DNA from: a virus | DNA: 22,744 nt | Strand: one strand, 5' to 3' | IMG/VR virus record: IMGVR_UViG_3300013132_000281 | Span: 1 to 22,744 of that record | Made by a program: the position numbers and the translations under genes | The notes under the pieces: generated by a model | The model's database searches: none | What the model saw: only the letters and a program-made list of their open reading frames with translations | What the model was told of the DNA's origin: nothing | Shown: positions 1,851-22,744 of the stretch, in pieces | Layout of the letters: each line of letters begins with the position of its first letter | Numbering within the stretch: the stretch's first letter is position 1

Positions 1851-3098
1851 ATGAATAAAAAAACTATATTAATGTTGTGCGATCATCCTCTGTCAACTTC
1901 AGGTGTCGCGACACAAGCAAGATGGTTGATTCATGGTCTAATAAACACAGGTAAATACAGCTTTCGTTGTTTTGGTGGAGCTGTTCGCCACGACAACTAT
2001 GACACCGTAGCGATTAATCCTGACTTCATAGTAAAACCAACCGATGGATTCGGTGATAGAAATCTTTTAAGACAAACGTTGGTGCAATTACGTCCCGACG
2101 CTGTGATGTTATTTACAGATCCTCGTTTTTTTATTTGGGTTTGGGAAATGGCCGACGAGATACGTCAGATTTGTCCTATAACATATTGGCATTTGTGGGA
2201 TAATGATCCATGGCCGGATTTTAATAGAGTTTTATATGAGTCAACGGATCTCATCAATTGCATCAATTGGCCGACTTATCAGATGGTCAAGGAACGCTTT
2301 CCTGAAAAAACGAACTACATTCCACACGCGGTGCCAAAAGATCTATATAAACCCTTACCAGACAACGTTGTAAGGGAATTTAGAAAAAAGCTTGTCGGAG
2401 AAAATAAGATAGATCATTTTTTAGTTGGCTATGTTTCTCGCAATGCTCGTCGTAAAATGCCGAGTGATATTATCGTATCGTGGAAGATGTTTTTGGATGA
2501 ATTACAAGCAAAACATGGTCATAGAAATGCGACGCTAGTAATGCACACCGAACCATTAGATCCTGAAGGTCCAAATCTTTATCACGTCGCAGACACCTTG
2601 AAAGTACAAGAAAATATTGTTTTTTCTAAGAGTCGAATTGCCTTTGAAGAAATGAATTTGTTATACAATTCTTTTGATACGATAGTCAATCGTAGTTGCA
2701 ATGAGGGATTCGGTTTACCGACGCTTGAATCAATGATGGCGGGTAAACCAATCATTACAATAAAAACAGGAGGCTTAACTCGGCAAGTCGAAGATCACGA
2801 AACTGGAGAACAATACGGTATCGGTTTAAATCCTGAAGTTCGTGCTTTAGTTGGTAATCAAATGGTTCCATACATTTATGAAGATTTAATATCTCACAAG
2901 ACATTAGCCGACGCATTTTTTAAAATGCATGAATTAGGACCTCAGGCAAGAAAAGAGTTAGGACTAAAGGCTATGCATCATGCTCACAAAGATTATGACA
3001 TCGACGATATGATAAAAAACTGGGATTCAACTTTAACTGGTTGTATCGAAAGCTGGAAAGACAAAAAACATTCTCTTTGGAGCCACACGGAGATTTGA
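1851..3098 (+). CDS. Glycosyltransferase, GT-B fold, GT4-like (group 1)
   Basis: Transfers a sugar from a nucleotide-sugar donor, probably in the cytoplasm. Seen: a first Rossmann half starting with ILMLCDHPLSTSGVATQ (residues 6-22), whose small-residue loop suits acceptor/donor contact; VGYVSRNARRKMP at 192-204 at the start of the second half, with the N-R-RK pattern usual for retaining GT4 enzymes; and NEGFGLPTLESMMAGKP at 284-300, the E-x7-E donor-binding signature (E285 and E293). The 415-residue length is normal. It is followed after one base by a second glycosyltransferase whose start has GGAG at 3089-3092, so the pair is probably co-translated. The acceptor is unknown: virion protein, modified DNA base or envelope glycan are all possible. 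No membrane segment is visible. A preceding 43-base gap is A-rich with no terminator. Confidence 0.86.
   Translation: MNKKTILMLCDHPLSTSGVATQARWLIHGLINTGKYSFRCFGGAVRHDNYDTVAINPDFIVKPTDGFGDRNLLRQTLVQLRPDAVMLFTDPRFFIWVWEMADEIRQICPITYWHLWDNDPWPDFNRVLYESTDLINCINWPTYQMVKERFPEKTNYIPHAVPKDLYKPLPDNVVREFRKKLVGENKIDHFLVGYVSRNARRKMPSDIIVSWKMFLDELQAKHGHRNATLVMHTEPLDPEGPNLYHVADTLKVQENIVFSKSRIAFEEMNLLYNSFDTIVNRSCNEGFGLPTLESMMAGKPIITIKTGGLTRQVEDHETGEQYGIGLNPEVRALVGNQMVPYIYEDLISHKTLADAFFKMHELGPQARKELGLKAMHHAHKDYDIDDMIKNWDSTLTGCIESWKDKKHSLWSHTEI
3089..3092 (+). promoter_or_regulatory. Ribosome binding site of the second glycosyltransferase
   Basis: GGAG lies 7 bases before the ATG at 3100, inside the last codons of the preceding gene. 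It is one of the few good Shine-Dalgarno matches in the window and supports this start. Confidence 0.6.
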
Positions 3099-3099
3099 A

Positions 3100-4272
3100 A
3101 TGAAAAGAGTAGTTGTAAGAGGTCCTGCGTTAACTCAATCCGGATACGGCGTCCACTGTCGACAGATCGTTCGTTGGTTGCTATCAAAGCCTGGTGTGGA
3201 TGTTAAATTTCAAGTTCTTCCGTGGGGTGATACCCCATGGTTATTAGACACCAAGTTATACGATGGTTTGATAGAAAAAATTGTAAAAAATACCATCGAT
3301 ATTGTGGTTAAGCCTCACGATAAATACGATGTTTCTTTTCAACTACAATTACCGAATGAATGGGATCCTTCGATAGCAAAATTTAACGTTGGAATGACAG
3401 CGTCAGTCGAAACGGATATATGCAATCCTTCTTGGATAGACGATTGTAATAAAATGGATTTGATAATAGTTCCATCGATTCACGCTGCTACTACGCTGAC
3501 GAAACACAAAAACTTACAAAAGCCCGTAGTCGTCGTACCCGAATCTTTTAGCGACGAAATTTTATTAGAAGATGAGCAATTACCAAAATTGCCAAAATTT
3601 TCTACCGATTTTAATTTTTTGTTATTTGGTCAGGTGACTGGTGACAATCCTCACAACGATCGTAAAAATTTGTTTTTTACCATAAAGTGGTTGTGCGAAA
3701 TTTTTAAAGACGATAAAGACGTGGGTTTAGTCATAAAAACAAACACAGGTCGCAACACGAAGATAGATAAAAATAAAACATTACAGCTAGTAAAAACGCT
3801 AGTAAGAGAATGTAGGAAAGGAGACTTTCCAAGAATACATTTGTTGCATGGCGATATGTCTAACGAAGAAGTCGCAGCGCTTTATAAACATGATCAGATT
3901 AAAGCGTTAGTAGCTCTAACTCGTGGAGAAGGTTACGGTCTACCAATTTTAGAAGCTGCAGCGAGTGGACTACCCGTTATAACGACAGGCTGGTCTGGTC
4001 ATTTAGATTTTATGAATAAAGGTAAGTTTATAAATATTTCTTATAATCTAAAACCAGTACATCCTTCTCGAGTTGATAATAAAATCTTTTTGTCGCACAT
4101 GAAATGGGCTGAAGTTTCAGAAGATGACGCAAAAAAGAAAATAACTAAATTTAAATCATCGCCATCTATCCCGAAAGATTGGGCAAAAGAATTAGCCGAA
4201 ACGATAAAAATAAATTATGATTTTACCTCGATATCAAAAAAATATGATGAGGTGATAAAAGAATTTTTATGA
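3100..4272 (+). CDS. Glycosyltransferase, GT4-like, second of pair
   Basis: A second GT-B glycosyltransferase of 390 residues. Seen: RGPALTQSGYGVHCRQI at 7-23 (glycine-rich N-terminal loop), FGQVTGDNPHNDRKN at 176-190 at the start of the donor domain, TRGEGYGLPILEAAASGLP at 274-292 with the paired glutamates E277 and E285, and GWSGHLDF at 297-304, a segment often found in phage and bacterial members that act on glycans. It is clearly related in fold to the upstream enzyme but not a recent duplicate, since similarity is confined to motifs. The stop overlaps the next start as ATGA (4269-4272), which indicates translational coupling to the membrane protein that follows. The C-terminal third (about 320-390) is lysine-rich. 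Donor and acceptor are unknown; the neighbouring sugar dehydrogenase makes a UDP-uronate or a derived pentose a reasonable but unproven donor. Confidence 0.85.
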   Translation: MKRVVVRGPALTQSGYGVHCRQIVRWLLSKPGVDVKFQVLPWGDTPWLLDTKLYDGLIEKIVKNTIDIVVKPHDKYDVSFQLQLPNEWDPSIAKFNVGMTASVETDICNPSWIDDCNKMDLIIVPSIHAATTLTKHKNLQKPVVVVPESFSDEILLEDEQLPKLPKFSTDFNFLLFGQVTGDNPHNDRKNLFFTIKWLCEIFKDDKDVGLVIKTNTGRNTKIDKNKTLQLVKTLVRECRKGDFPRIHLLHGDMSNEEVAALYKHDQIKALVALTRGEGYGLPILEAAASGLPVITTGWSGHLDFMNKGKFINISYNLKPVHPSRVDNKIFLSHMKWAEVSEDDAKKKITKFKSSPSIPKDWAKELAETIKINYDFTSISKKYDEVIKEFL

Positions 4273-7324: not shown

Positions 7325-9613
7325 ATGACGATACTGGTCGATGCGCAATATTTATCTAAACAAGAAATAGTCCGCGGCGGAGCGGCCGAAATATTTTTTA
7401 AACATAGAGATGAAGTTATCTTTGAAAAGATAAAAGAGAATCCTGATTACGATTTTATACCGCGCGAATCTTTTGCTAGAAGTCGCTTAGAATTTCCATC
7501 TTTTCATAGAAATTGGATCGATGGAATTTTAACTGCTTGTTTAAGAGCATTAAATCACGTTGCGGCTGTTAGCGCTGACTATATAAATCCCGTAGTAGAA
7601 TCACCGCAGCCCAAACCAGGACCAATTCACGATCCGTTTTTTGTTTTTAAAATTATTTCTGAAAGTGAATCGGCAGCACTTGCCACCCCCGCCGAGCCGG
7701 CACTTGATTTAGCTGGTATCGTTCCATATTTCGCTTTACCTGGTGAAGAAGGTCTCGTAAAGGCAGGTACCGATTGTGGCGCAGTAAATGTTAATTCTCC
7801 TCCTAATGTCGACAATGGCCGAGGTGAAGCTTTTAAAGCAGGAGCAAAAAACCTAACTGCAACGAAATATAAACGTAGAATAGCGAAAGATTATTTACCA
7901 AACATAGCCAGCGACGAATTTCCAGACCTAGAATATCCAGAAGGCGACACGAAGGGATTATCGCTAAGAAACAAACAAGAGTTATTGATAGACGCAATCA
8001 TAGAAGCTTATGATGAATTAGTGAATACGGTTCTTGAAAAACCTTCAAATTATTTATTTCCAATTGCGTTGGGCACAGTAGCTGGCGTTGAACCAAAACC
8101 CAATGTTGGTCAACAACAACCAGGGCTTGCTTTAAACCCGATTTTTGAAGCAGCAAAAGAGATATTAGATGAGGCAATGCCAGATCCATCTGCTAATGCT
8201 GATGATGCGATTTCTAACATCGTTAATTATGAAGCCCTGAAGAGAACTTTAGTAAAGCCCCTTTACTTGGCAACGATTGGAGTATTATTTGGTTCACATC
8301 AAAAAGGTTTTACAGGTCTGATGAGTAAAATAACTCCTGACCCAGTTGGATCATTGAACCTAAATTTCGCAGATCCGAAGCCCGAAAATCTGGATTTAGA
8401 CATGAGAGGATCGATAACGGAAGGTGCAGATTTATCGGTCCTTAGTGTTTTGCCCCCGCCCGATCCACAAGACGCGAATAGAAATGGCGTTCCTATCAAA
8501 AGAAATATATTGTACGTACCGAAGAGATATCACAATGTCGGTACAGGCTATAAGAACTCAGTGTATCTAAGATTGCGAGATATGGGCTCTAAGTTTATTT
8601 CTAGCAACGAAGTCAATTCGTTCGCAGATGACAATCACAAAGGTTTGATGTTCCTTTTTGCCCTGTCGCACGAAACAGGTTTTGATCTTGGCGTCGGAGT
8701 CGCAGGATTTAATGCGAAGACGAAAAAATGGGACACCGCAGGGCCCGGAGCTAAGTTATCAGATTCTTTCGTCTGGGGTATGTCGATAGGCGCTGTTGGT
8801 ACGACAGTTAGTTCGGTCACTGCGAATGAGTTTCAGAGCGCTCCTGTCTATAACCCTAATGGAAACCCCACCGAAAGAGGAATACCGATAGATAGACAAT
8901 TAGATTTCTATGAAGAATGGTTATGTAGAAATTTATTAATGATTGGTGCTCGACTCCCTGTACCTCCTAAAAACATACCTCCTAAAAACATGAACGAACC
9001 CCAAAATAGTCCACTTCAATACGCACCGGGTGGTGGGAGAGAGCATCCATCAGGTAAATATTACGGAGGTCCTGAACCGTTTGTTGCAAATAATCTAGCC
9101 ACCGTTTTAAAACCCAAGTGGACTAAAGCAGTTAGCACGTCTGGCACGTTTAGCACAGGATTTGTCCCTAAATCTGTGGGGGGTGTAGGTAGTCAACGAG
9201 ACCCTGGCTACGAAGATTATAAAGCACCATATTATTATATGAATACCCCTTATGATATATATGGTTTCCATCAAGGCATATTTGGATCTGGAGATAGGAT
9301 CGCGCAAGGCGGCACGAATCCAAATACGTATGCCGAAAAGCACGTTGTGTTTTATACTATGCCTTCTAGAGGGATGACTATGGTGAGTCAGGGTGAGCAT
9401 GTGCCAAGATACATGGCCGCCTGTGGAATGAAAGAAATAAATTTCGATATGCTAGCTATAGCGGGCTTAAGAAGATATATGACGCCTCAGGGTGGATCAA
9501 AACTTGCCAGCGCTGGCGCGTTTCCGCAAGGGCCACAATGGCTCAGCGAGAATGGTGCAGATATAAATATACATCAAAAATTACATAGCGCTAGAGACGC
9601 AAAAAACAAATAA
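7325..9613 (+). CDS. Large virion-associated protein, function unknown
   Basis: 762 residues starting one base after the stop of the hub-like gene, with GTGAAG at 7315-7320 as a weak ribosome site. The N-terminal ~90 residues are helical. Residues 92-165 are rich in proline and alanine. The central part (390-500) contains MFLFALSHETGFDLGVGVAG (442-461), which loosely recalls the HETGF-type active-site loop of lytic transglycosylases/muramidases, though no second catalytic motif is evident. The C-terminal 200 residues are rich in Gly, Tyr, Pro and Asn, with YKAPYYYMNTPYDIYGFHQG at 632-651, suggestive of an extended or fibrous part. Residues 547-556 are a duplicated pentapeptide (PPKNI-PPKNM). 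Given its place between the hub-like gene and the wedge genes, it may be a hub-associated or cell-wall-degrading component. I do not recognise its family. Confidence 0.82.
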   Translation: MTILVDAQYLSKQEIVRGGAAEIFFKHRDEVIFEKIKENPDYDFIPRESFARSRLEFPSFHRNWIDGILTACLRALNHVAAVSADYINPVVESPQPKPGPIHDPFFVFKIISESESAALATPAEPALDLAGIVPYFALPGEEGLVKAGTDCGAVNVNSPPNVDNGRGEAFKAGAKNLTATKYKRRIAKDYLPNIASDEFPDLEYPEGDTKGLSLRNKQELLIDAIIEAYDELVNTVLEKPSNYLFPIALGTVAGVEPKPNVGQQQPGLALNPIFEAAKEILDEAMPDPSANADDAISNIVNYEALKRTLVKPLYLATIGVLFGSHQKGFTGLMSKITPDPVGSLNLNFADPKPENLDLDMRGSITEGADLSVLSVLPPPDPQDANRNGVPIKRNILYVPKRYHNVGTGYKNSVYLRLRDMGSKFISSNEVNSFADDNHKGLMFLFALSHETGFDLGVGVAGFNAKTKKWDTAGPGAKLSDSFVWGMSIGAVGTTVSSVTANEFQSAPVYNPNGNPTERGIPIDRQLDFYEEWLCRNLLMIGARLPVPPKNIPPKNMNEPQNSPLQYAPGGGREHPSGKYYGGPEPFVANNLATVLKPKWTKAVSTSGTFSTGFVPKSVGGVGSQRDPGYEDYKAPYYYMNTPYDIYGFHQGIFGSGDRIAQGGTNPNTYAEKHVVFYTMPSRGMTMVSQGEHVPRYMAACGMKEINFDMLAIAGLRRYMTPQGGSKLASAGAFPQGPQWLSENGADINIHQKLHSARDAKNK
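8962..8991 (+). repeat. 15-base tandem duplication inside the 762-residue protein gene
   Basis: The unit ACCTCCTAAAAACAT occurs twice in a row (8962-8976 and 8977-8991) without mismatch. It duplicates the peptide PPKN(I/M) in frame, so it keeps the gene open. This looks like a recent slippage or duplication event in a linker. Confidence 0.9.
9562..9569 (+). promoter_or_regulatory. Candidate T4-late-type promoter box upstream of the gp25-like gene
   Basis: TATAAATA, the T4 late -10 consensus, lies inside the end of the preceding gene, 85 bases before the ATG of the gp25-like gene. T4-type late promoters need only this box, and a gp55-like sigma is encoded upstream. Two further exact + strand copies (4029, 16316) lie deep inside genes, and about two per strand are expected by chance in DNA this AT-rich, so position is the only support. 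Confidence 0.35.
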
Positions 9614-9653: not shown

Positions 9654-10121
9654 ATGGCTACATTAAGTTTTAAAAGTGTCGGTAGAACCGCAACGTCTTT
9701 GAATGACGAGATAGTAGAGACTAAGGTTCTACCGGTGGGTATAAAAACCCCTATTCAACTGAGTAATACTGATGGTCCATTCTTGATGCATTATTCTTTA
9801 GAGGATCAACTAGCAGATAATTTAAGAAACTTATTGCAAACTAACTTTGGAGATAGGGTAGGTATTTACGACTATGGTGCTAATCTGTATCCTCTTACGG
9901 CTGATTTTACGTCGCAAGATAATTTTGATGCCGAGGCCTTGACACGTATTAGCGCAGCTATATCGCGTTGGATGCCATTTATCGAGCCTTTAGACTATGT
10001 TTCTGAAGTTGATCGATCACAAAAATTGAGCACGGGTCTAATAAGGATTACAATAAGTTATAATATACCCAGCTTGAATTTAGAACAGAGAAAAGTTCAG
10101 ATAGTTCTATATGTAATTTAA
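9654..10121 (+). CDS. gp25: Baseplate wedge protein, gp25-like (GPW/gp25 family)
   Basis: 155 residues (T4 gp25 has 132). It is a wedge subunit that contacts gp6-type protein and the sheath-proximal part of the baseplate. Seen: SLEDQLADNLRNLLQTNFGD (48-67), a long helix typical of the family that ends in the FG-R turn; IYDYGANLYPL (71-81), the usual Y-G-L region; ISAAISRWMPFIEPLDY (99-115), the helix leading to the conserved EPR position; and a beta-rich C-terminus, with IRITISYNIP at 130-139. At the EPR position it reads EPL (111-113), so the arginine is replaced by leucine. The N-terminal extension of about 40 residues is polar. No good ribosome site is visible, but an AT-rich dyad occupies the upstream gap. 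The gp6-like gene follows after 4 bases, the order seen in T4-like and P2-like (W-J) wedges. Confidence 0.86.
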   Translation: MATLSFKSVGRTATSLNDEIVETKVLPVGIKTPIQLSNTDGPFLMHYSLEDQLADNLRNLLQTNFGDRVGIYDYGANLYPLTADFTSQDNFDAEALTRISAAISRWMPFIEPLDYVSEVDRSQKLSTGLIRITISYNIPSLNLEQRKVQIVLYVI

Positions 10122-10125
10122 ACAA

Positions 10126-11979
10126 ATGGCAACCGATAGAAAAGCTCAATTACAACAAGTTAGACAGCGCAGATATGTGTCTAGAGATTTTGATTCTCTA
10201 AGAGCCACGCTCTTGGACTATGCTAGACAATATTATCCAAATCAAATTCAAGATTTTTCGGAATCTTCTGTGGGTGGTTTGTTTTTAGACATGGCCGCGT
10301 ACGTTGGTGATAACATGTCTTTTTACATGGATCATCTATATAACGAATTAAATTTTGATACCGCTGTAGAACCTGACTCTATCGAAAGAGCTCTTATAAA
10401 TTCGGGTATTCCAATAAATGGGGCGTCGCCAGCCACAGTACAAGTAACGGTTTATATAGAAGTACCAGTAGCGCAAGCAGATGACGATACCCCCGACGCT
10501 ACGCTGTTACCGATAATAAAGGCAGGTAGTAATTTTCTATCTGCAAATTCTATTGTTTTTAATTTACTACAAGACGTCGAATTTGCAGTTGACAATGGAG
10601 ACGGCACGTATGTTTTAAATCCAGAGGCTCTAAAAAGAATCGGCAATACGAACGCCAACGGTCAAATTACTTCGTACATATTGTCTTTGTCTGGTTTGTG
10701 CGTTTCTGGTCAAGTTACGTCTGACACATTCGTAATCGGCGATTTCATACCATTTAGGACTTTGACTTTGGGACAACCAAACGTCACAGAGATAATAAAC
10801 GTATTTGACTCAGAAGGAAATACGTATTATGAAGTTGGAGCGTTAACACACGACGTTGTCTATAAGAACGTTCTTAACACCAACGGCGATAATGATTTCG
10901 TAAAAGATGCTTTGAAGGTCATTCCAGCGCCGTATAGATTTACTAAGACAACTTCTCTTGTTGAAAGATTATCTACGCTCACTTTCGGTGGCGGTACTGC
11001 AGATACGTTAGAAGATGATATAATTCCAGACCCATCAGAGTTTGCGATAGCGATTCCTTATAGTCGTACGACCTCGCGAGTTGCAGTTAATCCTCAAAAG
11101 TTATTGACAACAAACACTCTAGGTGTAGCTGCTTCGAATACTACGCTTACTGTAAGTTATCGATATGGTGGCGGGTTAGATCACAATGTAGGAGCTAATT
11201 CTATCACCAATATTTTATCTTTGACGATCGAGTTTCCGTCGAATCCATCGATCAATCTTTCTACGGCGATTAGAAACACTTTAGAGATTGCTAATTTAGA
11301 ACCTGCATCAGGCGGCGAAGACGCATTGTCGACCTCTGAATTAGTTGCACTAATCCCCACCGCGCGCAATTCTCAAGAGAGAATCGTGACAAAAGAAGAT
11401 CTTTTAGCGAGAATATACACCATGCCGTCCAATCTCGGTAGGGTGTTTCGAGCTGCCATTATACCGAATAGCAATAATCCCTTATCTACGCAACTATTCA
11501 TAATATCGCGCGACAGTCAAAATAAACTTATACAATCGCCAGATACTTTAAAGATCAATCTTAAAAAATATTTAAATTCTTACAGAATGGTATCTGACGC
11601 TTTTGATATTTTAGATGCAAAAGTCATTGACTTACAGCTGAAATTTTCTGTAGTGTTAGACCCGACGTTGAATAAAAATGGGGTGTTAGCTGTAATTTTG
11701 ACTTCGTTACAAAATAAGTTTGACATAACTAGGTTTCATATTAATCAACCGATAATAATTTCTGAGGTTGTTAATGCGATCTATGCCGTTCAAGGAGTCA
11801 TTGCTGTCGAAAATGTAACGTTCGTAAATATTTCAGGAAACGTCAACAATAGACAGTATAGCTTAGACACTCATGACGTAAAAAACTATACAAGAAAACA
11901 AATGGTATTCCCTCCTTCTGGAGGAATATTCGAAATCAGATATCCTGAAGTAGATATTATAGCCAAGGTATCAATGTAA
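10126..11979 (+). CDS. gp6: Baseplate wedge protein, gp6-like (baseplate J-like)
   Basis: 617 residues, close to T4 gp6 (660). Forms the inner ring of the baseplate wedge with gp7- and gp25-type partners. Seen: SRDFDSLRATLLDYAR at 19-34, then LDMAAYVGDNMSFYMD at 54-69, which together are the N-terminal signature of gp6/J-like proteins (L.D..A...D...Y..D..Y.E), then a beta-rich central part, and a C-terminal part with alternating strands and helices. TARNSQERIVTKEDLLARI (412-430) corresponds to the R-x-R-x-VT-x-eD-y region preceding the C-terminal dimerisation domain in J-like proteins, and VNAIYAVQGVIAVENV (544-559) is the conserved A-i-..v.GV..v motif near the end. The stop and the next start overlap (TAATG at 11977-11981). 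A short hairpin (11906-11928, 9 pairs with one bulge) lies in the last codons but has no T-run. Confidence 0.86.
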   Translation: MATDRKAQLQQVRQRRYVSRDFDSLRATLLDYARQYYPNQIQDFSESSVGGLFLDMAAYVGDNMSFYMDHLYNELNFDTAVEPDSIERALINSGIPINGASPATVQVTVYIEVPVAQADDDTPDATLLPIIKAGSNFLSANSIVFNLLQDVEFAVDNGDGTYVLNPEALKRIGNTNANGQITSYILSLSGLCVSGQVTSDTFVIGDFIPFRTLTLGQPNVTEIINVFDSEGNTYYEVGALTHDVVYKNVLNTNGDNDFVKDALKVIPAPYRFTKTTSLVERLSTLTFGGGTADTLEDDIIPDPSEFAIAIPYSRTTSRVAVNPQKLLTTNTLGVAASNTTLTVSYRYGGGLDHNVGANSITNILSLTIEFPSNPSINLSTAIRNTLEIANLEPASGGEDALSTSELVALIPTARNSQERIVTKEDLLARIYTMPSNLGRVFRAAIIPNSNNPLSTQLFIISRDSQNKLIQSPDTLKINLKKYLNSYRMVSDAFDILDAKVIDLQLKFSVVLDPTLNKNGVLAVILTSLQNKFDITRFHINQPIIISEVVNAIYAVQGVIAVENVTFVNISGNVNNRQYSLDTHDVKNYTRKQMVFPPSGGIFEIRYPEVDIIAKVSM

Positions 11980-13499
11980 TGTTTAGAGTCTTAAAAGCAG
12001 ATAAAGACACGTATATAACCAACAAGTATATTGACGGCAAACCAGCCGTCAGTGGAAATGTGGGAATAGCTGGATCGCTAGATTTTTTTAAACTTTACGG
12101 TGTTACAATCGTAACATCAGGTAGCAATAAAATTCCAAAGACCGAATTGAGTAGAACGTTAATACACTTTGATTTAGACCCGTTACAAGAGTTGTTCGAA
12201 GAAGGAAAATTAGATTTAAGTCATAATAGTTTTAAGTGTTTTATTAGTTTGAAAGATGTATACGGTGGGCAACCTACGCCCAGTAATTTTACGATCGACG
12301 TGTTTCCGATGTCAGCATCATGGTCAGAAGGTATCGGAAAAGACGTCGCCTACTATTCAGACGAAGATAAATGTAATTTTCTATCAGCGTCCAGCGATGC
12401 TCTATGGGCATCTGAAGGCTGCGCCTCGGAATGTTTTTCAACGGGTTCTGGCGACTATATCACTAGCTCGATTACGATAGCTAATACGAAAGTATCACAA
12501 ACATTTGTTAAAGGAACCGAGGACTTGTTGGTTGATGTTACTAATATAATCTCTGCGACGATAAAAGGAGATTTGCCTGATCAAGGTTTTAGATTGTCGT
12601 TTTCTTCTGCTATAGAAGCTGATACAAAAACATATTTCGTAAAACGATTTGCAAGCCGTCATGCTTACGATGAAAGTAAACGCCCTAAGATTATCGTCAA
12701 GTTCGACGATTCTATTTTAGATGATACGTCGAATCTTTATCTCGATTCACCAGTTTCTTCAAGTCTATTTTTATACAACTATGTACATGGACAATTAGCT
12801 AATTTATTGTCGGGTTCAACAAGCGTAACTGGTTCTAACAGCATATTGTTGGAGTTACAGTCTGAAGTTACAGGCGCTGGCCAATATTCTTTATATTTTA
12901 CAGGTTCACAGCACAAGTTTGGAACGAATTTTAGCACGGGCATTTATTCGGCGTCTTTGACGTTACCTCTTAGTAACGAAAATATCAAGACGAGCTTCGA
13001 CTTGTCGGGTTCTGTGATTTTTAAACCGATATGGACTTCTTTAGATCAAACCGTCGTTTACATTACTGGTTCTAACATTGTCGCCCGAGCTCCTGAAAGA
13101 ATATCTTATAGATTAAACCCGAGAAGATACAGGGTTAATGCGACAGGAATTAGTTCAGAATATTCTGAAGAAGAAGAAGTGACGATGCGTGTATATATTT
13201 TCGACGAAAATGACCCGCAAATAATAGCCAAACGATTGCCAGTAGAACTACCTGGTTTGTCTCTAAGAAAAGTACATTACGCTATTCGGAACGTCGCGAC
13301 GAACGAATATGAGATACCGTTCGATACGAGTTACAATTCTACGAAGATAAGCAGCGATTCAAAGGGAATGTATTTTAACTTCAACACGTCGGCATTAACT
13401 ACATTAAATTTATATGTAATCGATTTGATGATTATAGTAGATAATCTGGAACAGAAATACTTGAATGCGTCAGCCCCTTTCAGAATAATAAAAATTTAA
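11979..13499 (+). CDS. Baseplate-associated protein with N-terminal DNRLRE-like domain
   Basis: 506 residues. The first ~245 residues read like a DNRLRE beta-sandwich: KADKDTYITNKY at 6-17, LIHFDLDPLQEL at 61-72, SWSEGIGKDV at 114-123 (the usual W-EG-G motif) and FASRHAYDESKRPKIIVKF at 224-242 (the SR....-RP-i-v-f ending). That family occurs in secreted and phage adsorption proteins and is often linked to carbohydrate contact. The rest (250-506) is beta-rich with Ser-Gly-Ser and Thr-Gly-Ser linkers and looks like further sandwich domains. Three cysteines sit at 132, 148 and 152. In T4 the gp7 gene follows gp6 directly; here this gene is inserted between the gp6-like and gp7/gpI-like genes, suggesting a wedge-bound accessory protein exposed at the baseplate rim. 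Its exact role is unknown. Confidence 0.68.
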   Translation: MFRVLKADKDTYITNKYIDGKPAVSGNVGIAGSLDFFKLYGVTIVTSGSNKIPKTELSRTLIHFDLDPLQELFEEGKLDLSHNSFKCFISLKDVYGGQPTPSNFTIDVFPMSASWSEGIGKDVAYYSDEDKCNFLSASSDALWASEGCASECFSTGSGDYITSSITIANTKVSQTFVKGTEDLLVDVTNIISATIKGDLPDQGFRLSFSSAIEADTKTYFVKRFASRHAYDESKRPKIIVKFDDSILDDTSNLYLDSPVSSSLFLYNYVHGQLANLLSGSTSVTGSNSILLELQSEVTGAGQYSLYFTGSQHKFGTNFSTGIYSASLTLPLSNENIKTSFDLSGSVIFKPIWTSLDQTVVYITGSNIVARAPERISYRLNPRRYRVNATGISSEYSEEEEVTMRVYIFDENDPQIIAKRLPVELPGLSLRKVHYAIRNVATNEYEIPFDTSYNSTKISSDSKGMYFNFNTSALTTLNLYVIDLMIIVDNLEQKYLNASAPFRIIKI

Positions 13500-13505
13500 T
13501 GTGTC

Positions 13506-16500
13506 ATGGCAATAACAAATACCTTACCCTATATTCCTTCTTTTTTGAAGGCAGCGTTAACGGATACTCGCCCAGCACAATTAACTTTTTTAGACCTCGC
13601 AGGGTCAAATTCTAATATACTAAGCACGGCGTCGTTTAAATATGATCCGTTGACTTATGGACTTAAGTCAACGCAACAGCTAAATGTCGACTGGTCAGCG
13701 TTTGAGAACCATACTTTTTTTCAATCTGCAGAAGTTAAGACTAACGTAGCTTTCGATCAAATTATTAACGGTTACCCATTTGATGGAACTAAAAAAGACA
13801 TAGAGACCTTCTTCGATAAGATAAGCGGATTCGAAAATTGGGTATTCGAACAATTTCCGACTTTTGGTGGTCAATTACATTTTTCTGGTACACAAACTTC
13901 AGAAGTTTCACCGACACAAGGCGTTTATGTTACGGTAAAGGACATAGCCGGTTGGTTATTTCCAGATCTAGCAAAAAACAATTCTGGAGAATCTGTAATT
14001 AACCCTCCTCCCAATAAGTCATTTACTATCGAATTACTAGCCTACATTCCCAATATCTCGAATAGCAGACAGGTCGTTATACAAAAACAATCAGACGATA
14101 GAATGGAAGGTTTTACTTTTCACTTAGAACCTTCTTCGTCCGATAAAGTCATGGGGGTGTTTAGCATCGTATCTGGTACGATTTACAATCATGTTGAAGC
14201 TGAATTGACAAAAGGCGAGTTTAATCACGTCTGCATGACGTTGAACAGAGAATCAGGACCCGATTATTTGCAATTTTTTACCAACGAAAAGTTGCCGGCT
14301 ACGAGCAATACGAAAAACAAAATTGGCTCATTAGAACAAAAATCTGAATTATATATCGGATCTGGTTCTTCTTTTTACGTTACGGGAACCTTGATAACGC
14401 CACAACAAACCTTCAGTGGTAGTTTAGATGAGCTAAGATTATTTCATTCGACGCGTAGTATAAAGCAACAACAACTATATGCTTCAAAAGGAATATACGC
14501 GTCAGATGAAATGAAGTTGTACTATAGATTCAACGAACCAGATTCTCTATATTCGAATATAGCTTCTGACACAGTTAATTCTATCGTTTTAGATAGCTCG
14601 GGGAATTCATTACATGGTACGATAAACAACTATATTACATATGGTTCTTCGTCTTTAAGACAATCGACCAGCGACGACAGTAATAGTTTAATGATTAATG
14701 AAAAAGATCTATTTAAAAAGATACTTTTTCCCCTTAATTCAGACGTCGTCAGTCTAAACGAAAGATTGCTTAGTTCCGCGAGCTTATACGATCAAGACAA
14801 TCCAAACTTAATTACTAAATTAATACCACGTCATTATCTAAGAGAGGGCGCAGCAGCGCAAGGATACGAAAACACAGCTGTTGAAGGTTCGATCAGAGAA
14901 GCGTATAGTGGCGACGGAATACCGGGCCAAGGTCGCCTTGGTTCTGTACAGATCATGTTGACTTTTTTATATATTTGGGCAAAATTTTTCGATGAAATGA
15001 AGATGTTCGCCGACGCCTTTAAGACGTTGAGAACCGTCAAATATTCGATGCCAGATACTTCACCAGATAATTTTTTAAGCGACTTTATAAAAGATTACGG
15101 CTTTTATCTACCTCCACTTTTCAACAGTTCAAATGTGACACAATACGTCGAAGGAGAAGATATTTCAGAAATTGGTGTTAGTGATTATTCTTTAAAACAA
15201 GTACAAGCCACACTGTTGAGACGCGTTTTAATAAACATACCCGATATACTTCGTTCAAAAGGAACTCAACACAGCATACGATCTTTTTTGCGAGCCATCG
15301 GTATAGATCCAGAAAACAGCATACGCATAAGAGAATTTGGTGGCCCATCATTACGCCAATTTGAATCAACACGCGAGTTTAAGGTCGAACCTAATTCACT
15401 CGCTCGAGTATCAGCGTCAATATTGCTAAAGTCAGGGTATCTGTCTGGTTCTCGAGAAGAACCAGGCTATCCCAGCGTTACCGGTACATTTGTAAATGGT
15501 ATTTCGAATGCTCCGTCTGATGGTTTGTTCACTTCAGGTTCTTGGACGTACGAAGGGATATATAGGTTTCCTGTTCGCAATATAGTTCAGTATGATGTTC
15601 AATCATTAGCCAGAATTCATACGACCGGTTCTGCGACCACTGCAAAATCTGCATTAATGTTTAATTTAGTGGTGTCGGGAGGCTTGTATCTGTATGGTAG
15701 ACCAGGATCGAATACGAACGCCCCTATTTTGCAATTGAATATACCAGAAGTTGATGTTTTTAATGGCGAAAAATGGAATATATCGTTCGGTTGTCAAAGA
15801 GCAGATCAAATAGATAGCACGGTCTCCTCGTCGTATTTTTTACGCGCAGCTACTCAAAATGCAGGAGATATTGACGGGTATTATGTTACTTCGTCGTTTT
15901 TTGTAGAAGATTTACCGGCGACTAATATCAACTACATGAAGACGATCTCGAGCGTTTATAACGCGTCCGGCGCTTATATAGCGATTGGTAATGATCCAAA
16001 TATTCCAGAGGGTGTTATGGGATATTTGTTTTTGAACGATACATTTAACGTGTCCGATACCGCGCGAACTGTTGAATTCGATGGCAGGGTAGGTTATACG
16101 AGATTTTGGTCAAAGGCTTTAACAGAAACTGAATGGCGAGATCACGTAAGAAACTATAAGTCTCAAGGCGTCGCGACGCCTTTAACAAATTTTAATTATG
16201 TAAAAAACAAATCTGGTTCTTTTGAACGCTTGAGAATGAGTACTATCGAAAAGCAATCTCAAAAAACTGCAAATTCTTCGGGCGAAATTTTGTTCTTAGA
16301 TTATAGTCAAAACAATATAAATATGTCAGGTTCTGGCTATGGACCGTTGGCGACAGCATCGTTTGGAGAACTATTCGATAGAAGTTATTTGTCTCCTTAT
16401 TTCGATGAATATTCGTCTAGCGAAAAAATAAGAATACGCGGATTTAAAGACGAACAATATTTGTCAGATGCGCCATGGGCGACATTGGGATCGGTGACTG

Positions 16501-16955
16501 AGTATCCTGCAGATGAGATACCGATGGATGATCCTCGCTTGTCAATAGAGTTTTCGCTAATAGATTCTTTAAATAAAGATATCGTTAATATGTTTGCGAC
16601 GTATGAAGAATTAGGGAATGCGATAGGCGATCCTACAATGGCTTATTCTCCTGATTATCCCGATCTTGAAAAATTAAGAAACATTTACTTCAATAGACTT
16701 TCAGAAAAAATTAACTTTAGAAGTTTTTTTGAATTTTATAGATGGTTCGATGTTTCTATCAGCACCTTTATAGAACAATTAGTTCCGCGTAAAACAAAGT
16801 TTAAAGGAACTAATTTCATAGTCGAATCTCACATGTTAGAACGTCACAAGATAGAATATCAATCAAGCGAAATTTATCTCGGTGACGCGACGCGCGGAAG
16901 AATAAGAGATACACTACTGGTTCAACAGATAGTAGGAAAAATTGGAAGAATTTAA
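13506..16955 (+). CDS. Large baseplate wedge protein with two LamG-like regions and a gp7/gpI-like segment
   Basis: 1149 residues (T4 gp7 has 1032). Seen: an N-terminal region of about 165 residues; a first laminin-G/concanavalin-like domain (about 170-330) with KSFTIELLAYIPN at 171-183, NHVCMTLN at 240-247 and FSGSLDELRLFHSTRSI at 303-319; then helices at 480-510, where the segment is predicted to be helical. ILRSKGTQHSIRSFLRAIGI at 581-600 matches the helix-KGT-helix-LG motif found in P2 gpI and gp7-type wedge proteins. A second lectin-like region follows (about 660-900) with a GRVGYTRFWSKALTETEWRD core. The C-terminus ends in a conserved-looking helical/beta part with FIEQLVPRKTKFKGTNFIVE. 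Following gp25- and gp6-like genes, it occupies the third wedge slot (W-J-I or 25-6-7). The lectin parts suggest contact with glycans. A weak start context: no Shine-Dalgarno sequence. Confidence 0.72.
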   Translation: MAITNTLPYIPSFLKAALTDTRPAQLTFLDLAGSNSNILSTASFKYDPLTYGLKSTQQLNVDWSAFENHTFFQSAEVKTNVAFDQIINGYPFDGTKKDIETFFDKISGFENWVFEQFPTFGGQLHFSGTQTSEVSPTQGVYVTVKDIAGWLFPDLAKNNSGESVINPPPNKSFTIELLAYIPNISNSRQVVIQKQSDDRMEGFTFHLEPSSSDKVMGVFSIVSGTIYNHVEAELTKGEFNHVCMTLNRESGPDYLQFFTNEKLPATSNTKNKIGSLEQKSELYIGSGSSFYVTGTLITPQQTFSGSLDELRLFHSTRSIKQQQLYASKGIYASDEMKLYYRFNEPDSLYSNIASDTVNSIVLDSSGNSLHGTINNYITYGSSSLRQSTSDDSNSLMINEKDLFKKILFPLNSDVVSLNERLLSSASLYDQDNPNLITKLIPRHYLREGAAAQGYENTAVEGSIREAYSGDGIPGQGRLGSVQIMLTFLYIWAKFFDEMKMFADAFKTLRTVKYSMPDTSPDNFLSDFIKDYGFYLPPLFNSSNVTQYVEGEDISEIGVSDYSLKQVQATLLRRVLINIPDILRSKGTQHSIRSFLRAIGIDPENSIRIREFGGPSLRQFESTREFKVEPNSLARVSASILLKSGYLSGSREEPGYPSVTGTFVNGISNAPSDGLFTSGSWTYEGIYRFPVRNIVQYDVQSLARIHTTGSATTAKSALMFNLVVSGGLYLYGRPGSNTNAPILQLNIPEVDVFNGEKWNISFGCQRADQIDSTVSSSYFLRAATQNAGDIDGYYVTSSFFVEDLPATNINYMKTISSVYNASGAYIAIGNDPNIPEGVMGYLFLNDTFNVSDTARTVEFDGRVGYTRFWSKALTETEWRDHVRNYKSQGVATPLTNFNYVKNKSGSFERLRMSTIEKQSQKTANSSGEILFLDYSQNNINMSGSGYGPLATASFGELFDRSYLSPYFDEYSSSEKIRIRGFKDEQYLSDAPWATLGSVTEYPADEIPMDDPRLSIEFSLIDSLNKDIVNMFATYEELGNAIGDPTMAYSPDYPDLEKLRNIYFNRLSEKINFRSFFEFYRWFDVSISTFIEQLVPRKTKFKGTNFIVESHMLERHKIEYQSSEIYLGDATRGRIRDTLLVQQIVGKIGRI
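13648..13673 (+). repeat. Perfect 10-base-pair inverted repeat with 6-base loop
   Basis: CGTTGACTTA (13648-13657) and TAAGTCAACG (13664-13673) are exact inverse complements around the loop TGGACT. It lies about 140 bases inside the 1149-residue gene. It is followed by ACGCAACAGC rather than a T-run, so it is not a standard terminator. Role unknown; it could slow ribosomes or protect mRNA. Confidence 0.8.
16165..16182 (+). repeat. Perfect 18-base palindrome inside the 1149-residue gene
   Basis: AAGGCGTCG is followed at once by its inverse complement CGACGCCTT. As RNA it gives a 7-pair GC-rich stem with a CGCG loop, followed by TTAACAAATTTT. The T content is too interrupted for a confident terminator and the site lies within an open gene. 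It could also be a protein-binding or cleavage site. Confidence 0.8.
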
Positions 16956-16966
16956 TTGGATGTAAC

Positions 16967-17956
16967 ATGACCATATATTCAAAGAATTTTTATTCGACGA
17001 TCCAGCAATATTCAACCATCGCTACTACGGCGTTCGACGAAGGGCCGGGCATAAAGGTAAATGCTGTTGGTATTAACACATCAAGTATCGGCACGGTAGA
17101 TATCGATGCGTTTAGACAAGGCGTAGAGATTACGCAAAACAAACATGCTTATGCAGGATTATTTAAGATTTCTGCGGGAACGCCAGGTCACATTATCAAA
17201 CCAGTTTGTCTTGGAGCAAACGACGACATAAAAATATTTTCTTCTAATTTTTATGTAGAAGTCGACACGTTAGATCCTGTCGCATACATTAAATCAGTTA
17301 ATGCAGATGCCCGTGATCGTATGATCGCGACTGAAGAAGATTTTCTAGAAAGAAAATATTCATATAATGGAGTGATCGAGCCTCTTGCGATAAGATCTAT
17401 AGAGGGATTTTTATCTACAGAGTTGCCTTTCCAAATGCACACTATTCGTGGAGAGTTTTCGGCAGGTAACTCCAACAAATACATCGATGGTAATGATCAA
17501 GTTTTGACAGTTGATTATGTACCTAAAACGCGCGTAGCGGTAAATGGTAGTCGTGGATTTATAGATGGTAATATAGCTTACGAAAACAAATCGCCATTTT
17601 ACGATAGGTATAGTGAAGCATCGACGCCTCCAGGATCAGGTTCTATTTCTGGTAAAATTTCTAAAGCCCTGCCTACGAACAACGGTGTTGTTAAATATTT
17701 TTTAGTTGATGTATCGGGTTCTACTGTTTTATCAAACGTAGTTTTTCCATTCGACGATGCGCAAGTATATTTGAAAAGCATGGGAATTTCAGCAGCTACT
17801 CACGGTAGTGATATGAATAATATCTTCAACACGATGACAGGATCGTCGGGAAATTATGTGCCACCTGGCAAAAAATCAGCGACAACCGGTTTTGTATATG
17901 ATAATATAGGATACGCAGGAACTGATTCGATCGCGTTTGGAGGCATGACTTACTAA
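16967..17956 (+). CDS. Virion structural protein, family not recognised
   Basis: 329 residues, no signal peptide or membrane segment. The N-terminal half is beta-rich: AYAGLFKISAGTPGHIIKP (61-79) looks like a small sandwich, and IKIFSSNFYVEVD (88-100) continues it. SYNGVIEPLAIRS (132-144) is a phrase I associate with peripheral structural proteins of environmental T4-like phages. Position 205-240 holds a Gly/Ser/Pro linker. The C-terminal third is glycine- and serine-rich and ends FGGMTY. The gene begins 11 bases after the wedge gene, with GGATG just before the start as a weak ribosome site, and its stop overlaps the next start (TAATG at 17954-17958). It is most likely a baseplate or fibre-adaptor subunit; no specific function can be supported. 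Confidence 0.8.
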   Translation: MTIYSKNFYSTIQQYSTIATTAFDEGPGIKVNAVGINTSSIGTVDIDAFRQGVEITQNKHAYAGLFKISAGTPGHIIKPVCLGANDDIKIFSSNFYVEVDTLDPVAYIKSVNADARDRMIATEEDFLERKYSYNGVIEPLAIRSIEGFLSTELPFQMHTIRGEFSAGNSNKYIDGNDQVLTVDYVPKTRVAVNGSRGFIDGNIAYENKSPFYDRYSEASTPPGSGSISGKISKALPTNNGVVKYFLVDVSGSTVLSNVVFPFDDAQVYLKSMGISAATHGSDMNNIFNTMTGSSGNYVPPGKKSATTGFVYDNIGYAGTDSIAFGGMTY

Positions 17957-20913
17957 TGGCGACCAGCAAGACTTTAAGAGCCCGGGCTCCAAGATTAACA
18001 CAAAATTATGTTGCCTCTATTAGAAGATTATTCGGCGACCCTGAAACGATACCTGATACTAGATTTTTATCAGGCAAGTACATTACGACAGGTACTGACT
18101 TAGGAACGCCAGCTTCTAACGAAGGAGCTTTTTCTATAATCGAACCGATAGGTTTTGATATTGAAATAAACGGTAAAACGTATAAAGAGTTTTCAGTCGC
18201 AATGGCAGGTTGGGTTTTTCTGAGAGATCCCGCGGGCGGGTCGACAAATCCTGTTAATTTCTGGACAGACATACTTAACGCATTTACCAATATTTACGAT
18301 AATCAATCGATATCTGCTACCTTTTCTTACGATCACATTTTCTTACCTGTGTGGTTTGATAGAAACCACTCGGTAGCTTCTAGCGTCGCTGCTTTACAGG
18401 CGACGGATTATTCCTCTATAATCACTGCTAATGTCGCGTCGAACATCGCAAGTGGCATAAACACTAGTAATTGGCCATACGATAAAATTGATTATGGGTT
18501 ACGATATGTTAACGTCAACGATGGTAAAAGAGGCAAGTGCTTGCTAGTAAGATGGACAGCAAGTCAGAGGTACTATGGAAATAGACTTAAATTTGAATTA
18601 GCTTTATACGAAAATGGAACGATAGAATATCGATATTGGCCAATAAAGACTTTTCAGGCTAGCAATACGTCGCCGGCAGATAACTCCTCGGCAACAGTCG
18701 GTGTTTTTTGGAGTCAAACAGGAAAAAGTTATTTATGGCGCGATTTTTCTCCTTTGCTAGATTACAAGAAAAATATTAGAAACTTAAGTCCACTTGGTGG
18801 CGCAATATACGATTCTGGTTTCACTGATTCTTCTGCTGTTTATGCTGATAACATCAACGCAAATTTTTGGCCTAAAAATGGAGCAATAATTACATTTTCT
18901 CCGCCCGCTAAACCTTTAAAGATTTTACCAAAAAAATTGATTAGTGATATTGCTTCAACACGTGAAATTATAAGATATCCTGGCTCGTTCGACGACAGAA
19001 AAACGATACCATTCACGACGAATGGTTCTATACACATGCCGTCGATGTTACCAGGTAGACTGCTAGGCGACACAGGAGATATTAACGTTTCATTACGTCA
19101 AGCTCTATTCGTGAGCGGCAGCTCGTCGGGCAGTTTTATAATCGAAGGTGCAAGTACGAATAAATCAGCGATTGATTCTCAACTAGCTCAATTAGATGCT
19201 ATAGAGAAATTAAACAAATCTATTGATTTATCTTTTAATGAATCACAAAAAAATTATAAGACGACGTCTTCGACGAACTCTTTTTATGCGACGGGATCAT
19301 CTATACAGGATTTTGGAATAGGGTTTTCTTCCCCTCTAAAATCGAAGACGCAATTTTACTTGTCGTTACCCGTTACGAAACAAACAACGATGTTAGCTAC
19401 AACATCATCGATGTATTATTATAACACGACAAAATCGCAATGGGAAATGGTAAATTCTAGCGATTTAACTAGCCCGTTGCTCGCCGTTTCAGAACCAGAA
19501 GATAGCCTTAGCGCGTATGAATTCCAACTGGTGGCGAACCCGGTCTACAGAGTCGTCGAAACCGCAAAAGGTTTTGATGCTGTCGGGCGCAGAGTTGTGT
19601 CGGGTTCAAATACGACGAGCGCCGCGACCTTCGGTAATACTACAATGCAATCTGATAATGCAATAGGAGCTGTGCTAAATACGGAGAACATGGCCGACGC
19701 GTCGGCGGGGACTATTTTTTATTACACCTTTAAAGAAGAAGTCAGCGACGCAGCGTCTAGCGAATACGAAAAAAGCATCAGTGATTCTTCAGATTACATT
19801 CCGACAAGAGAACAAAAATTTAATTTATCGATTAACGAACCTTTCTTATTAGAAAAATTAACTATCAATTTGCCTTTGTACGTAAGTGGAAGTTGGTTTA
19901 ACGACGTTACGACTTGCACCCGCGCGTTTACTGATAGCAACGATTATTGGGATGGTCAAGGCAGATTCAGAGGCGCAGTCGATTTTGGTGGACCTGGTAT
20001 AACAGTAGCGTTGTTTTGCCATAGAAATGCGCCAGGCGTAACTTACCTAGATTTAATTGCTTCTGGTACAATAACTCACACTAACGATGACATAACGGAT
20101 GTAATATTGAAAAAAGATCCCGATATGAAACACTATAGTTTAAGACCTGTAGGGTTTAAGTCTTTTTCAAATCCATCTGCAGTAATCAATGGTAACGCGT
20201 CAAATATTTTTGAAGGTGTAGTTAATTTAGATTTGTCTCCATCTATCGCAGGAGGATTGACGATCGCTCGGCTGGATCGATCTTATATAACCTCTAGTTT
20301 TGCAACAAAAAATGTAGTTAGTACGACGTTAGTAAATAGTAATAGGAATAAGTCAATTAATTTATTGACTTCTCAAAAATTAGCCTCGCGAGGCGAGACA
20401 CCTATAAATCATTATGACATGAGACAGAGAACTGACGATTATACGTCACGATCACCAAGGGTGTACGTACAACAAGTTAGTCCGTTGTCGCGGGGGTCGA
20501 CTGGAGTCGAATTTAATGGCAATTCAATCTTGGGAGGCAATATAGCGTCATTTAATTTTGAAGACTTAGTCGATAACCCGCTGTACGTAGGTCAATCGGG
20601 TTCGTTATCTTCTTATTACACTACACCCATAGATACTTCTAATTTTGGATTCGAAGCAGTGTCGATATATTCGACTGTCGATTCTCGACCGGCGCCATAT
20701 CTGTTAATGCCAGGTGATACATTGACAATGTCTGTGTCTAAGACTAGACCCGTGATATATAAAGCAGTTCATTCTGCTAATGGCGCTTATTGGAAAGAAT
20801 TTAATTCCTATCAACTGACTGGTAGTCATGGAACTGTTATGCTTAATACTGGATCGATAGAAATTACCCTTTATGGTAGTTATGTAAGAAATGGTATGGA
20901 GTTTAATCCATGA
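17956..20913 (+). CDS. Large virion protein with nidogen-like N-terminal sandwich, probable fibre or baseplate appendage
   Basis: 985 residues. Residues about 60-260 resemble the beta-sandwich of nidogen-type and choice-of-anchor extracellular proteins: INGKTYKEFSVAMAGWVFL (71-89), LLVRWTASQ (196-204), LKFELALYENGTIEYRYWP (211-229) and SATVGVFWSQTG (245-256). The middle (about 330-860) is Ser/Thr/Asn-rich beta-sheet. The end reads LTGSHGTVMLNTGSIEITLYGSYV followed by RNGMEFNP (a pattern of fibre-shaft ends in environmental phages). GGAGG at 17939-17943 lies 12 bases from the start, which is somewhat far. Between wedge and fibre genes, it is probably a peripheral baseplate or side-fibre protein binding glycans or proteins. 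No enzymatic motif is seen. The stop overlaps the next start (ATGA). Confidence 0.75.
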   Translation: MATSKTLRARAPRLTQNYVASIRRLFGDPETIPDTRFLSGKYITTGTDLGTPASNEGAFSIIEPIGFDIEINGKTYKEFSVAMAGWVFLRDPAGGSTNPVNFWTDILNAFTNIYDNQSISATFSYDHIFLPVWFDRNHSVASSVAALQATDYSSIITANVASNIASGINTSNWPYDKIDYGLRYVNVNDGKRGKCLLVRWTASQRYYGNRLKFELALYENGTIEYRYWPIKTFQASNTSPADNSSATVGVFWSQTGKSYLWRDFSPLLDYKKNIRNLSPLGGAIYDSGFTDSSAVYADNINANFWPKNGAIITFSPPAKPLKILPKKLISDIASTREIIRYPGSFDDRKTIPFTTNGSIHMPSMLPGRLLGDTGDINVSLRQALFVSGSSSGSFIIEGASTNKSAIDSQLAQLDAIEKLNKSIDLSFNESQKNYKTTSSTNSFYATGSSIQDFGIGFSSPLKSKTQFYLSLPVTKQTTMLATTSSMYYYNTTKSQWEMVNSSDLTSPLLAVSEPEDSLSAYEFQLVANPVYRVVETAKGFDAVGRRVVSGSNTTSAATFGNTTMQSDNAIGAVLNTENMADASAGTIFYYTFKEEVSDAASSEYEKSISDSSDYIPTREQKFNLSINEPFLLEKLTINLPLYVSGSWFNDVTTCTRAFTDSNDYWDGQGRFRGAVDFGGPGITVALFCHRNAPGVTYLDLIASGTITHTNDDITDVILKKDPDMKHYSLRPVGFKSFSNPSAVINGNASNIFEGVVNLDLSPSIAGGLTIARLDRSYITSSFATKNVVSTTLVNSNRNKSINLLTSQKLASRGETPINHYDMRQRTDDYTSRSPRVYVQQVSPLSRGSTGVEFNGNSILGGNIASFNFEDLVDNPLYVGQSGSLSSYYTTPIDTSNFGFEAVSIYSTVDSRPAPYLLMPGDTLTMSVSKTRPVIYKAVHSANGAYWKEFNSYQLTGSHGTVMLNTGSIEITLYGSYVRNGMEFNP
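20898..20901 (+). promoter_or_regulatory. Ribosome binding site of the 452-residue virion protein
   Basis: GGAG ends 8 bases before the ATG at 20910, within the last codons of the preceding gene. It supports the ATGA-overlap start. Confidence 0.55.
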
Positions 20914-22272: not shown

Positions 22273-22744
22273 ATGTCTAAGTTTAAAATAGCAACAGGGG
22301 ATGATGCGTTAAAGTCTGGATTTCTTTATTCTAGAAGTTCTGACACTAAAGAAATAAAAAAAATAGCCTCGTCTGTCGATTTTCAAGTAGGTTTAACTAA
22401 TGCTTCAAAAGACTTAACGGTGACTGGCGATCTTATCGCCTTGGGCGGAATAAGTGGGTCATTAACGCGATTAAGCGATGATAGTTCTTATCTCGTTGCC
22501 GGTTCAAATATTACGATAACGTCTGCGTCGAATGGTCAAATTACAATTTCTTCCACTGCTGGTGGAGGTGGGTCAGGAGACGTTGTAGGACCATCAAGCG
22601 CAACTGATAATGCAATCGTGCGTTTTGACTCTACGACAGGAAAATTAATTCAAGATTCAGCTGTAACGATCGCTGATACTACCGGCAATATAACTACGCC
22701 TGGAGATATCGCAGTTAACGGCGGCGATATAACAACAACGGCTG
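22273..22744 (+). CDS. Tail-fibre protein, N-terminal part (runs off the window)
   Basis: The frame is open from ATG at 22273 to the window edge (157 complete codons) and is cut by the edge, so its true length is unknown. Translation shows GDLIALGGISGSLTRLSD at 52-69, YLVAGSNITITSASNGQI (73-90), a glycine linker at 97-100, then GPSSATDNAIVRFDSTTGK (106-124) and LIQDSAVTIADTTGNI (125-140). The phrase G-P-(A/S)SATDNAI-RFD-TTGK-LIQDS is very common in phage tail fibres as a repeated shaft or collar element. It begins 4 bases after the preceding stop with no clear ribosome site. It probably mediates host recognition; the receptor-binding end lies beyond the window. Confidence 0.85.
   Translation, partial: MSKFKIATGDDALKSGFLYSRSSDTKEIKKIASSVDFQVGLTNASKDLTVTGDLIALGGISGSLTRLSDDSSYLVAGSNITITSASNGQITISSTAGGGGSGDVVGPSSATDNAIVRFDSTTGKLIQDSAVTIADTTGNITTPGDIAVNGGDITTTA

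Follow-up and report, generated by a model that had tools for sequence, protein, structure and literature searches.

The virus record IMGVR_UViG_3300013132_000281 (22,744 bases, analysed over its whole length and here called the window) encodes an 1149-residue protein that is most likely a gp7/gpI-type baseplate wedge subunit of large aquatic phages. Its open reading frame (ORF), at 13506-16955 on the + strand, is intact, with an ATG at 13506 and a stop codon that ends at 16955. The ORF, Pfam matches and structural models agree with the first-pass annotation that a single chain of this length holds a segment with a Lys-Gly-Thr (KGT) motif between two LamG-like regions, LamG1 and LamG2. The wedge assignment follows from a profile match between the helical KGT core and the P2 gpI family, a collinear match to T4 gp7, and the order of the neighbouring genes. 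With a probability of roughly 0.6, the protein would serve as a wedge subunit of a large contractile-tailed phage, with LamG domains that act mainly in docking.

The core runs from an N-P-N-L-I-T-K-L-I-P motif to past the KGT helix and a G-G turn, and sequence comparison indicates with fair confidence that it is gpI-like. A core profile of 101 sequences (4 of 105 proteins lacking the KGT..GG pattern were dropped) was compared by hhalign with a gpI profile made of P2 and 17 further sequences, giving a score of 34.8, a probability of 51% and P 1.5e-4, with KGT in register. This score exceeds all 200 column shuffles (maximum 25.9) and all 200 shuffles of 8-column blocks (maximum 33.0), and the reversed profile reaches 11.1; the alignment to gpI that had been predicted for the KGT segment is thereby recovered. 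The K, G and T are invariant in a 75-row alignment, and among 39 family members scanned at E up to 0.1, Tail_P2_I is matched by 11 and Gp7_helical by three.

Likeness to gp7 is proposed with less confidence than likeness to gpI. Compared with T4 gp7 and seven relatives (eight regions were fetched for this set and seven used, L252 being left out), the core gives two collinear local matches, at gp7 644-669 and 732-749. A P-x-x-Y-L segment pairs with window residues 431-456, and a KG segment follows further on, in the same order in both proteins. The best score, 27.6 (P 0.0017, a weak value), is reached by one of 150 column shuffles and by none of 150 block shuffles.

Several results weigh against this assignment. 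The Pfam Tail_P2_I match in the window protein itself, at residues 557-610, scores 13.8 bits, below the cut-off of 20.6, and Gp7_helical has no match in the window. P2 gpI alone finds no match in alignment A3, and the T4 gp7 KG segment taken by itself is not significant, its score being reached by 5 column and 20 block shuffles out of 150 each. In the second of two models described below, confidence over the helical core is low to moderate (10-residue means of 44-78). No gp7 or gpI chain was noticed among the 50 matches listed by each of two fold searches with that model; the lists were filled by LamG folds, so this result is not evidence against the core. In other searches, sequence profiles run against the PDB with alignments A2, A3, A4 and A7 gave nothing convincing, and a match to 7obi (E 5.5e-4) was discounted because no stretch of it passed by itself. 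The wedge protein has no match in PHROGs at E up to 0.1.

Relatives of the protein are widespread and keep the same gene order. A first scan of viral contigs found 17 related loci, and a second scan with an alignment as query gave 294 matching stretches, from which 80 loci were kept, on contigs of up to 369 kb. In all 78 loci where the four genes were found, among 126 listed with near-duplicates included, the order is gp25, gp6, a conserved gene X, and the KGT protein. Distant relatives occur in the 484-kb phage LR756508, Flavobacterium phage immuto and Microcystis phage Mel-JY01, where they are likewise encoded after gp25 and gp6; those in immuto and Mel-JY01 are annotated as "hypothetical protein". 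Profiles of the two branches align over 889 columns at 20% identity (probability 100%, E 1.6e-40). A Foldseek search of predicted viral structures with the second model returned near-full-length matches, with a best E of 2.7e-35, to viral proteins that are uncharacterised or unnamed, and a search of the open-licence literature found no paper on this wedge-protein family. Alignment A1 omits L001 (100% identical, cut) and L015 (short), and alignments A2-A4 hold 39 of 40 listed fragments (L022 is out), with 57 sequences available at below 80% identity. One set of relatives kept 71 sequences from 91 matches after duplicates and proteins of fewer than 1000 residues were dropped, and L145 was dropped from one sequence set before counting. 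A full gp25-gp6-X-KGT module with a linked glycosyltransferase is also present in a sequence filed under a Methylococcaceae metagenome-assembled genome (L095, NHDW01000006.1, 305,838 bases), which appears to be phage sequence that was binned together with a bacterial genome.

Both LamG regions are predicted to be LamG/ConA-like jelly rolls, as had been proposed, with best Z scores of 17.5 and 17.7. Both are wider than the first-pass annotation had placed them: LamG1 covers residues 118-335 rather than 165-330, and LamG2 about 628-961 rather than 640-900. Pfam Laminin_G_3 matches LamG1 over residues 169-318 with 42.8 bits (cut-off 27.6) and E 7.8e-11, a match common to all 39 family members scanned at E up to 0.1. 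In a whole-chain model built from 16 sequences, with a mean predicted local distance difference test score (pLDDT) of 39.9, LamG1 is the sole long well-predicted stretch. Structural comparison of the jelly roll, at about 118-335, gives Z scores of 15.8-17.5 among the 50 matches listed; these come from clostridial toxins and related proteins, of which they are the binding domains, at 8-16% identity. The likeness of the modelled domain to these toxins reflects the shared jelly roll and is uninformative on function.

LamG2 has no Pfam match in the window protein itself, but a Laminin_G_3 match (best E 3.7e-4) in nine of the 39 members scanned. A second model, of residues 395-1149 from 75 sequences, reaches a mean pLDDT of 75.4, with 10-residue means of 78-95 over residues about 625-964. 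The best fold match of LamG2 aligns 212 residues at a root-mean-square deviation of 3.2 A (Z 17.7). Its neighbours are PAPP-A, pentraxin and laminin LG in the structural comparison, and neurexin LNS and the carbohydrate-binding module (CBM) family CBM40 in Foldseek; they include the sialic-acid-binding CBM40 of sialidase and a putative carbohydrate-binding Bacteroides protein. The nearest folds of the LamG domains thus mix carbohydrate binders with protein binders.

The two domains may differ in their distribution. LamG1 and LamG2 do not align to each other in sequence, and a recent duplication is therefore unsupported. None of three distant relatives scanned (Mel-JY01, immuto and LR756508) has a Pfam LamG match. 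The N-terminal core segment (residues 66-117) has an SSA-type counterpart in the distant branch, as judged from motif positions. In the window family, the median spacing from the SSA motif to the LIP site is 371 residues (55 of 67 rows) and that from LIP to KGT is 143 (56 of 67 rows). The LIP-site pattern failed in 31 of 32 distant rows, for which SSA and KGT positions were used instead; there the SSA motif lies 245-284 residues ahead of KGT (31 of 32 rows, those where the pattern matched). The spacings differ by about 250 residues, consistent with a single additional domain in the window family; the distant branch seems to lack LamG1, through gain of the domain on one side or its loss on the other. 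LamG1 and LamG2 each match a stretch of about 30 residues after KGT in the distant branch (P 7.2e-5 and 6.3e-5, values obtained without a shuffle control), and LamG2 is therefore probably present there.

A (gp6)2-gp7 module has been described for Vibrio phage XM1 (PMC10457771), and by analogy with known wedges, the N-terminal segment, the KGT core and the C-terminus of the window protein would pack with two gp6-like copies and gp25. LamG1 would then sit upstream, between the N-terminal segment and the core, and LamG2 between the KGT core and the C-terminus. Both would project from the wedge at the site from which gp7 parts point outward in other contractile systems; in AlgoCIS, for example, the gp7-like part of Alg12 is reported to be laterally exposed, facing outward and contacting tail fibres (PMC8894135). 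Docking, that is, holding peripheral proteins, fibres or neighbouring wedges, would be the most likely role of the LamG domains, to which weak or generic contact with glycans might be added.

Conservation of the LamG domains bears on this choice. Domains that read the host are expected to vary. Identity to the window over aligned residues was compared in the 21 of 73 loci with at least 19,300 bases, some of them near-identical to one another. Median values are 0.57 for gp6, 0.48 for gp25 and 0.50 for X, and within the wedge protein 0.59 for the core, 0.50 for LamG1 and 0.47 for LamG2. Three downstream genes, each found in 20 of the 21 loci, have medians of 0.33, 0.31 and 0.36; for an upstream gene at 5704 the median is 0.39. 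In this comparison the LamG domains therefore behave like parts of the baseplate, although the core is better conserved. Their conservation is close to that of gp25 and X and above that of the downstream genes, and docking is therefore favoured over a host-specific lectin.

A tentative alternative is that the LamG domains are working lectins, by which the wedge would grip host surface glycans and add to fibre-based adsorption, as proposed for Gp119 of Vp4. Wedge proteins with CBM folds are on record, since Vp4 Gp119 is reported to bind bacterial cells (PMC11406892) and Alg11 of AlgoCIS to carry two such folds (PMC8894135), and the CBM40 and Bacteroides neighbours of LamG2 point in the same direction. 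Furthermore, LamG2 keeps W680, W757, Y777, W868 and W877, four Trp and one Tyr, in more than 93% of rows, an observation on the side of sugar binding. On the other hand, none of the 38 LamG1 positions kept in more than 93% of rows is Trp or Tyr, proteins are frequent ligands of LamG folds, and both domains lack the variability expected of host-reading domains. This conservation counts against a host-specific lectin and not against glycan contact as such; binding of a conserved glycan would be compatible with it and would weaken the case for docking. The first-pass annotation had suggested sugar-binding surfaces on the baseplate core instead of on fibres. Lectin-shaped domains on a probable wedge protein are borne out, whereas sugar binding is not, given the protein binders among the nearest folds and the core-like conservation. 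Nor is "instead of fibres" borne out, since peripheral or fibre proteins may be the products of the large downstream genes (17956-22268, and a gene cut at 22273).

The relation to the baseplate and to the nearby sugar genes raises further alternatives. A peripheral or fibre-like protein, encoded merely downstream of gp6 and X and not a wedge subunit, would agree with a gpI/gp7 match that is weak in absolute terms. This is very unlikely in view of the KGT register in the gpI profile match, the collinear T4 gp7 match, the invariant KGT and the fixed gene order. Binding of the phage's own glycan, an idea raised earlier, is likewise very unlikely; in this reading the upstream glycosyltransferases and the uridine diphosphate (UDP)-sugar dehydrogenase would make a glycan to which the LamG domains bind, as an assembly or shielding device. 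A homologue of the second glycosyltransferase (3100-4272) is present in 23 of 25 related records, on the same strand and about 7-14 kb upstream of the wedge gene; the two misses are G143, whose contig ends too soon upstream, and G145, from the distant branch. A UDP-glucose/GDP-mannose dehydrogenase gene, recognised by Pfam, opens the window; 18 of 19 window-family records have it, as against none of seven distant-branch records (two of which are the same phage). The missing case, G144, bears LamG1 and the transferase, which speaks against a link, as do related transferases (35-36% identity) in four of 19 distant-branch records, namely immuto (twice), the record of L135 and Mel-JY01. The transferases of immuto and Mel-JY01 lie far from the wedge gene, in phages without a Pfam LamG1, so that the idea that LamG1 goes with glycosyltransferases is weakened; the 484-kb LR756508 has no match. 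Because just two branches are compared, co-occurrence is confounded by descent. Four putative glycosyltransferases are among the core genes of an aquatic jumbo phage lineage described in 2025, for which DNA and virion glycosylation are both discussed; glycosyltransferases in jumbo phages may modify DNA (PMC12619734). The link between the sugar genes and the wedge is a conserved gene neighbourhood and not evidence of glycan binding by the wedge. It is more improbable still that a conserved wedge lectin pair reads a phage-made glycan on a neighbouring virion protein and that sheath firing or baseplate assembly depends on it. In one relative (G138:C1:77413-78375) the dehydrogenase homologue is read through one in-frame TGA.

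Among the closest known systems, P2 gpI (Tail_P2_I) has a helical core with KGT in register and is encoded after gp25-/gp6-type genes (P2 W, J, I), but it has 176 residues and Tail_P2_I as its single Pfam match, whereas the window core lies within 1149 residues with two LamG folds. T4 gp7 is also a large multi-domain wedge subunit encoded after gp6, with a P-x-x-Y-L and then a KG segment in the same order; it differs in having KGI, Pfam domains V and VI after the core and no LamG match, and the similarity is weak. In Synechococcus phage S-CAM22 (KU686207), a 6273-residue wedge protein follows gp25 and gp6 as the window protein does, and its single chain combines two LamG matches with a KGT segment (about residue 695) that falls within a Pfam Baseplate_wedge match. 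However, it is more than five times longer, its LamG matches lie far downstream of KGT, a separate gp7 is annotated in that phage, and it has no significant similarity to the window-family profiles. Its gene (L256 4355-23176) also has a YHYH match, and by eye its KGT segment resembles the T4 gp7 KG segment. Gp119 (BW3) of Vp4 is a baseplate wedge protein with carbohydrate-binding folds and demonstrated cell binding, although it is a different wedge protein with other CBM folds (PMC11406892). Alg11 resembles the window protein as a wedge protein with two extra carbohydrate-binding modules, recognised by fold search; its modules form a spike cage, and the available part of that report does not describe LamG fused to a gp7-type core (PMC8894135). 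Comparable wedge fusions are thus already on record in Vp4 Gp119, AlgoCIS Alg11 and the S-CAM22 KGT-LamG protein, and because these precedents exist, the LamG-wedge architecture is a variation on a known kind.

Coordinates of the wedge gene, its parts and neighbouring genes in the window
Feature	Position	Strand	Basis
Wedge subunit (gp7/gpI-type, most likely) with two LamG-fold domains, 1149 residues	13506..16955	+	ORF, relatives, synteny
N-terminal core segment, residues 66-117, starts F-x-N-H-x-F-F-x-S-A	13701..13856	+	alignment, motif positions
LamG1 predicted jelly roll, residues 118-335	13857..14510	+	Pfam, model, fold match, spacing
gpI/gp7-like helical core, residues 431-622	14796..15371	+	hhalign to gpI and T4 gp7; Tail_P2_I
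KGT motif, residues 585-587	15258..15266	+	invariant in alignments A1 and A6
LamG2 predicted jelly roll, residues about 628-961	15387..16388	+	model, fold match, Pfam in 9/39 members
C-terminal core, residues 962-1149, mostly helical, conserved	16389..16952	+	model, conservation
gp25-like sheath initiator	9654..10121	+	Pfam GPW_gp25, E 8.4e-7; PHROG 43
gp6-like wedge subunit	10126..11979	+	PHROG 219 baseplate wedge subunit, E 2.7e-14
Protein X, conserved, between gp6 and wedge protein	11979..13499	+	synteny; CBM96 in 1/27 relatives scanned
Glycosyltransferase (Glycos_transf_1), neighbour module	1851..3098	+	Pfam
Second glycosyltransferase	3100..4272	+	Pfam; homologue in related records

Elsewhere in the window, the CBM96 match to protein X (E 5.5e-5) suggests that it too may have a carbohydrate-binding-type fold. 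A 762-residue protein encoded at 7325-9613, amid the conserved baseplate genes, is found in only one of 21 related loci; the module, conserved elsewhere, is variable at this position. The segment 4608-5339, which precedes the baseplate genes, matches a late sigma transcription factor family (PHROG 234, E 1.1e-5).

The assignment, if correct, identifies a wedge subunit that lacks annotation in a widespread group of large aquatic phages, with relatives in Flavobacterium and Microcystis phages, and provides another example of a baseplate wedge with built-in lectin-fold domains. Should these domains bind glycan, fibres would not be the sole basis of adsorption in these phages.

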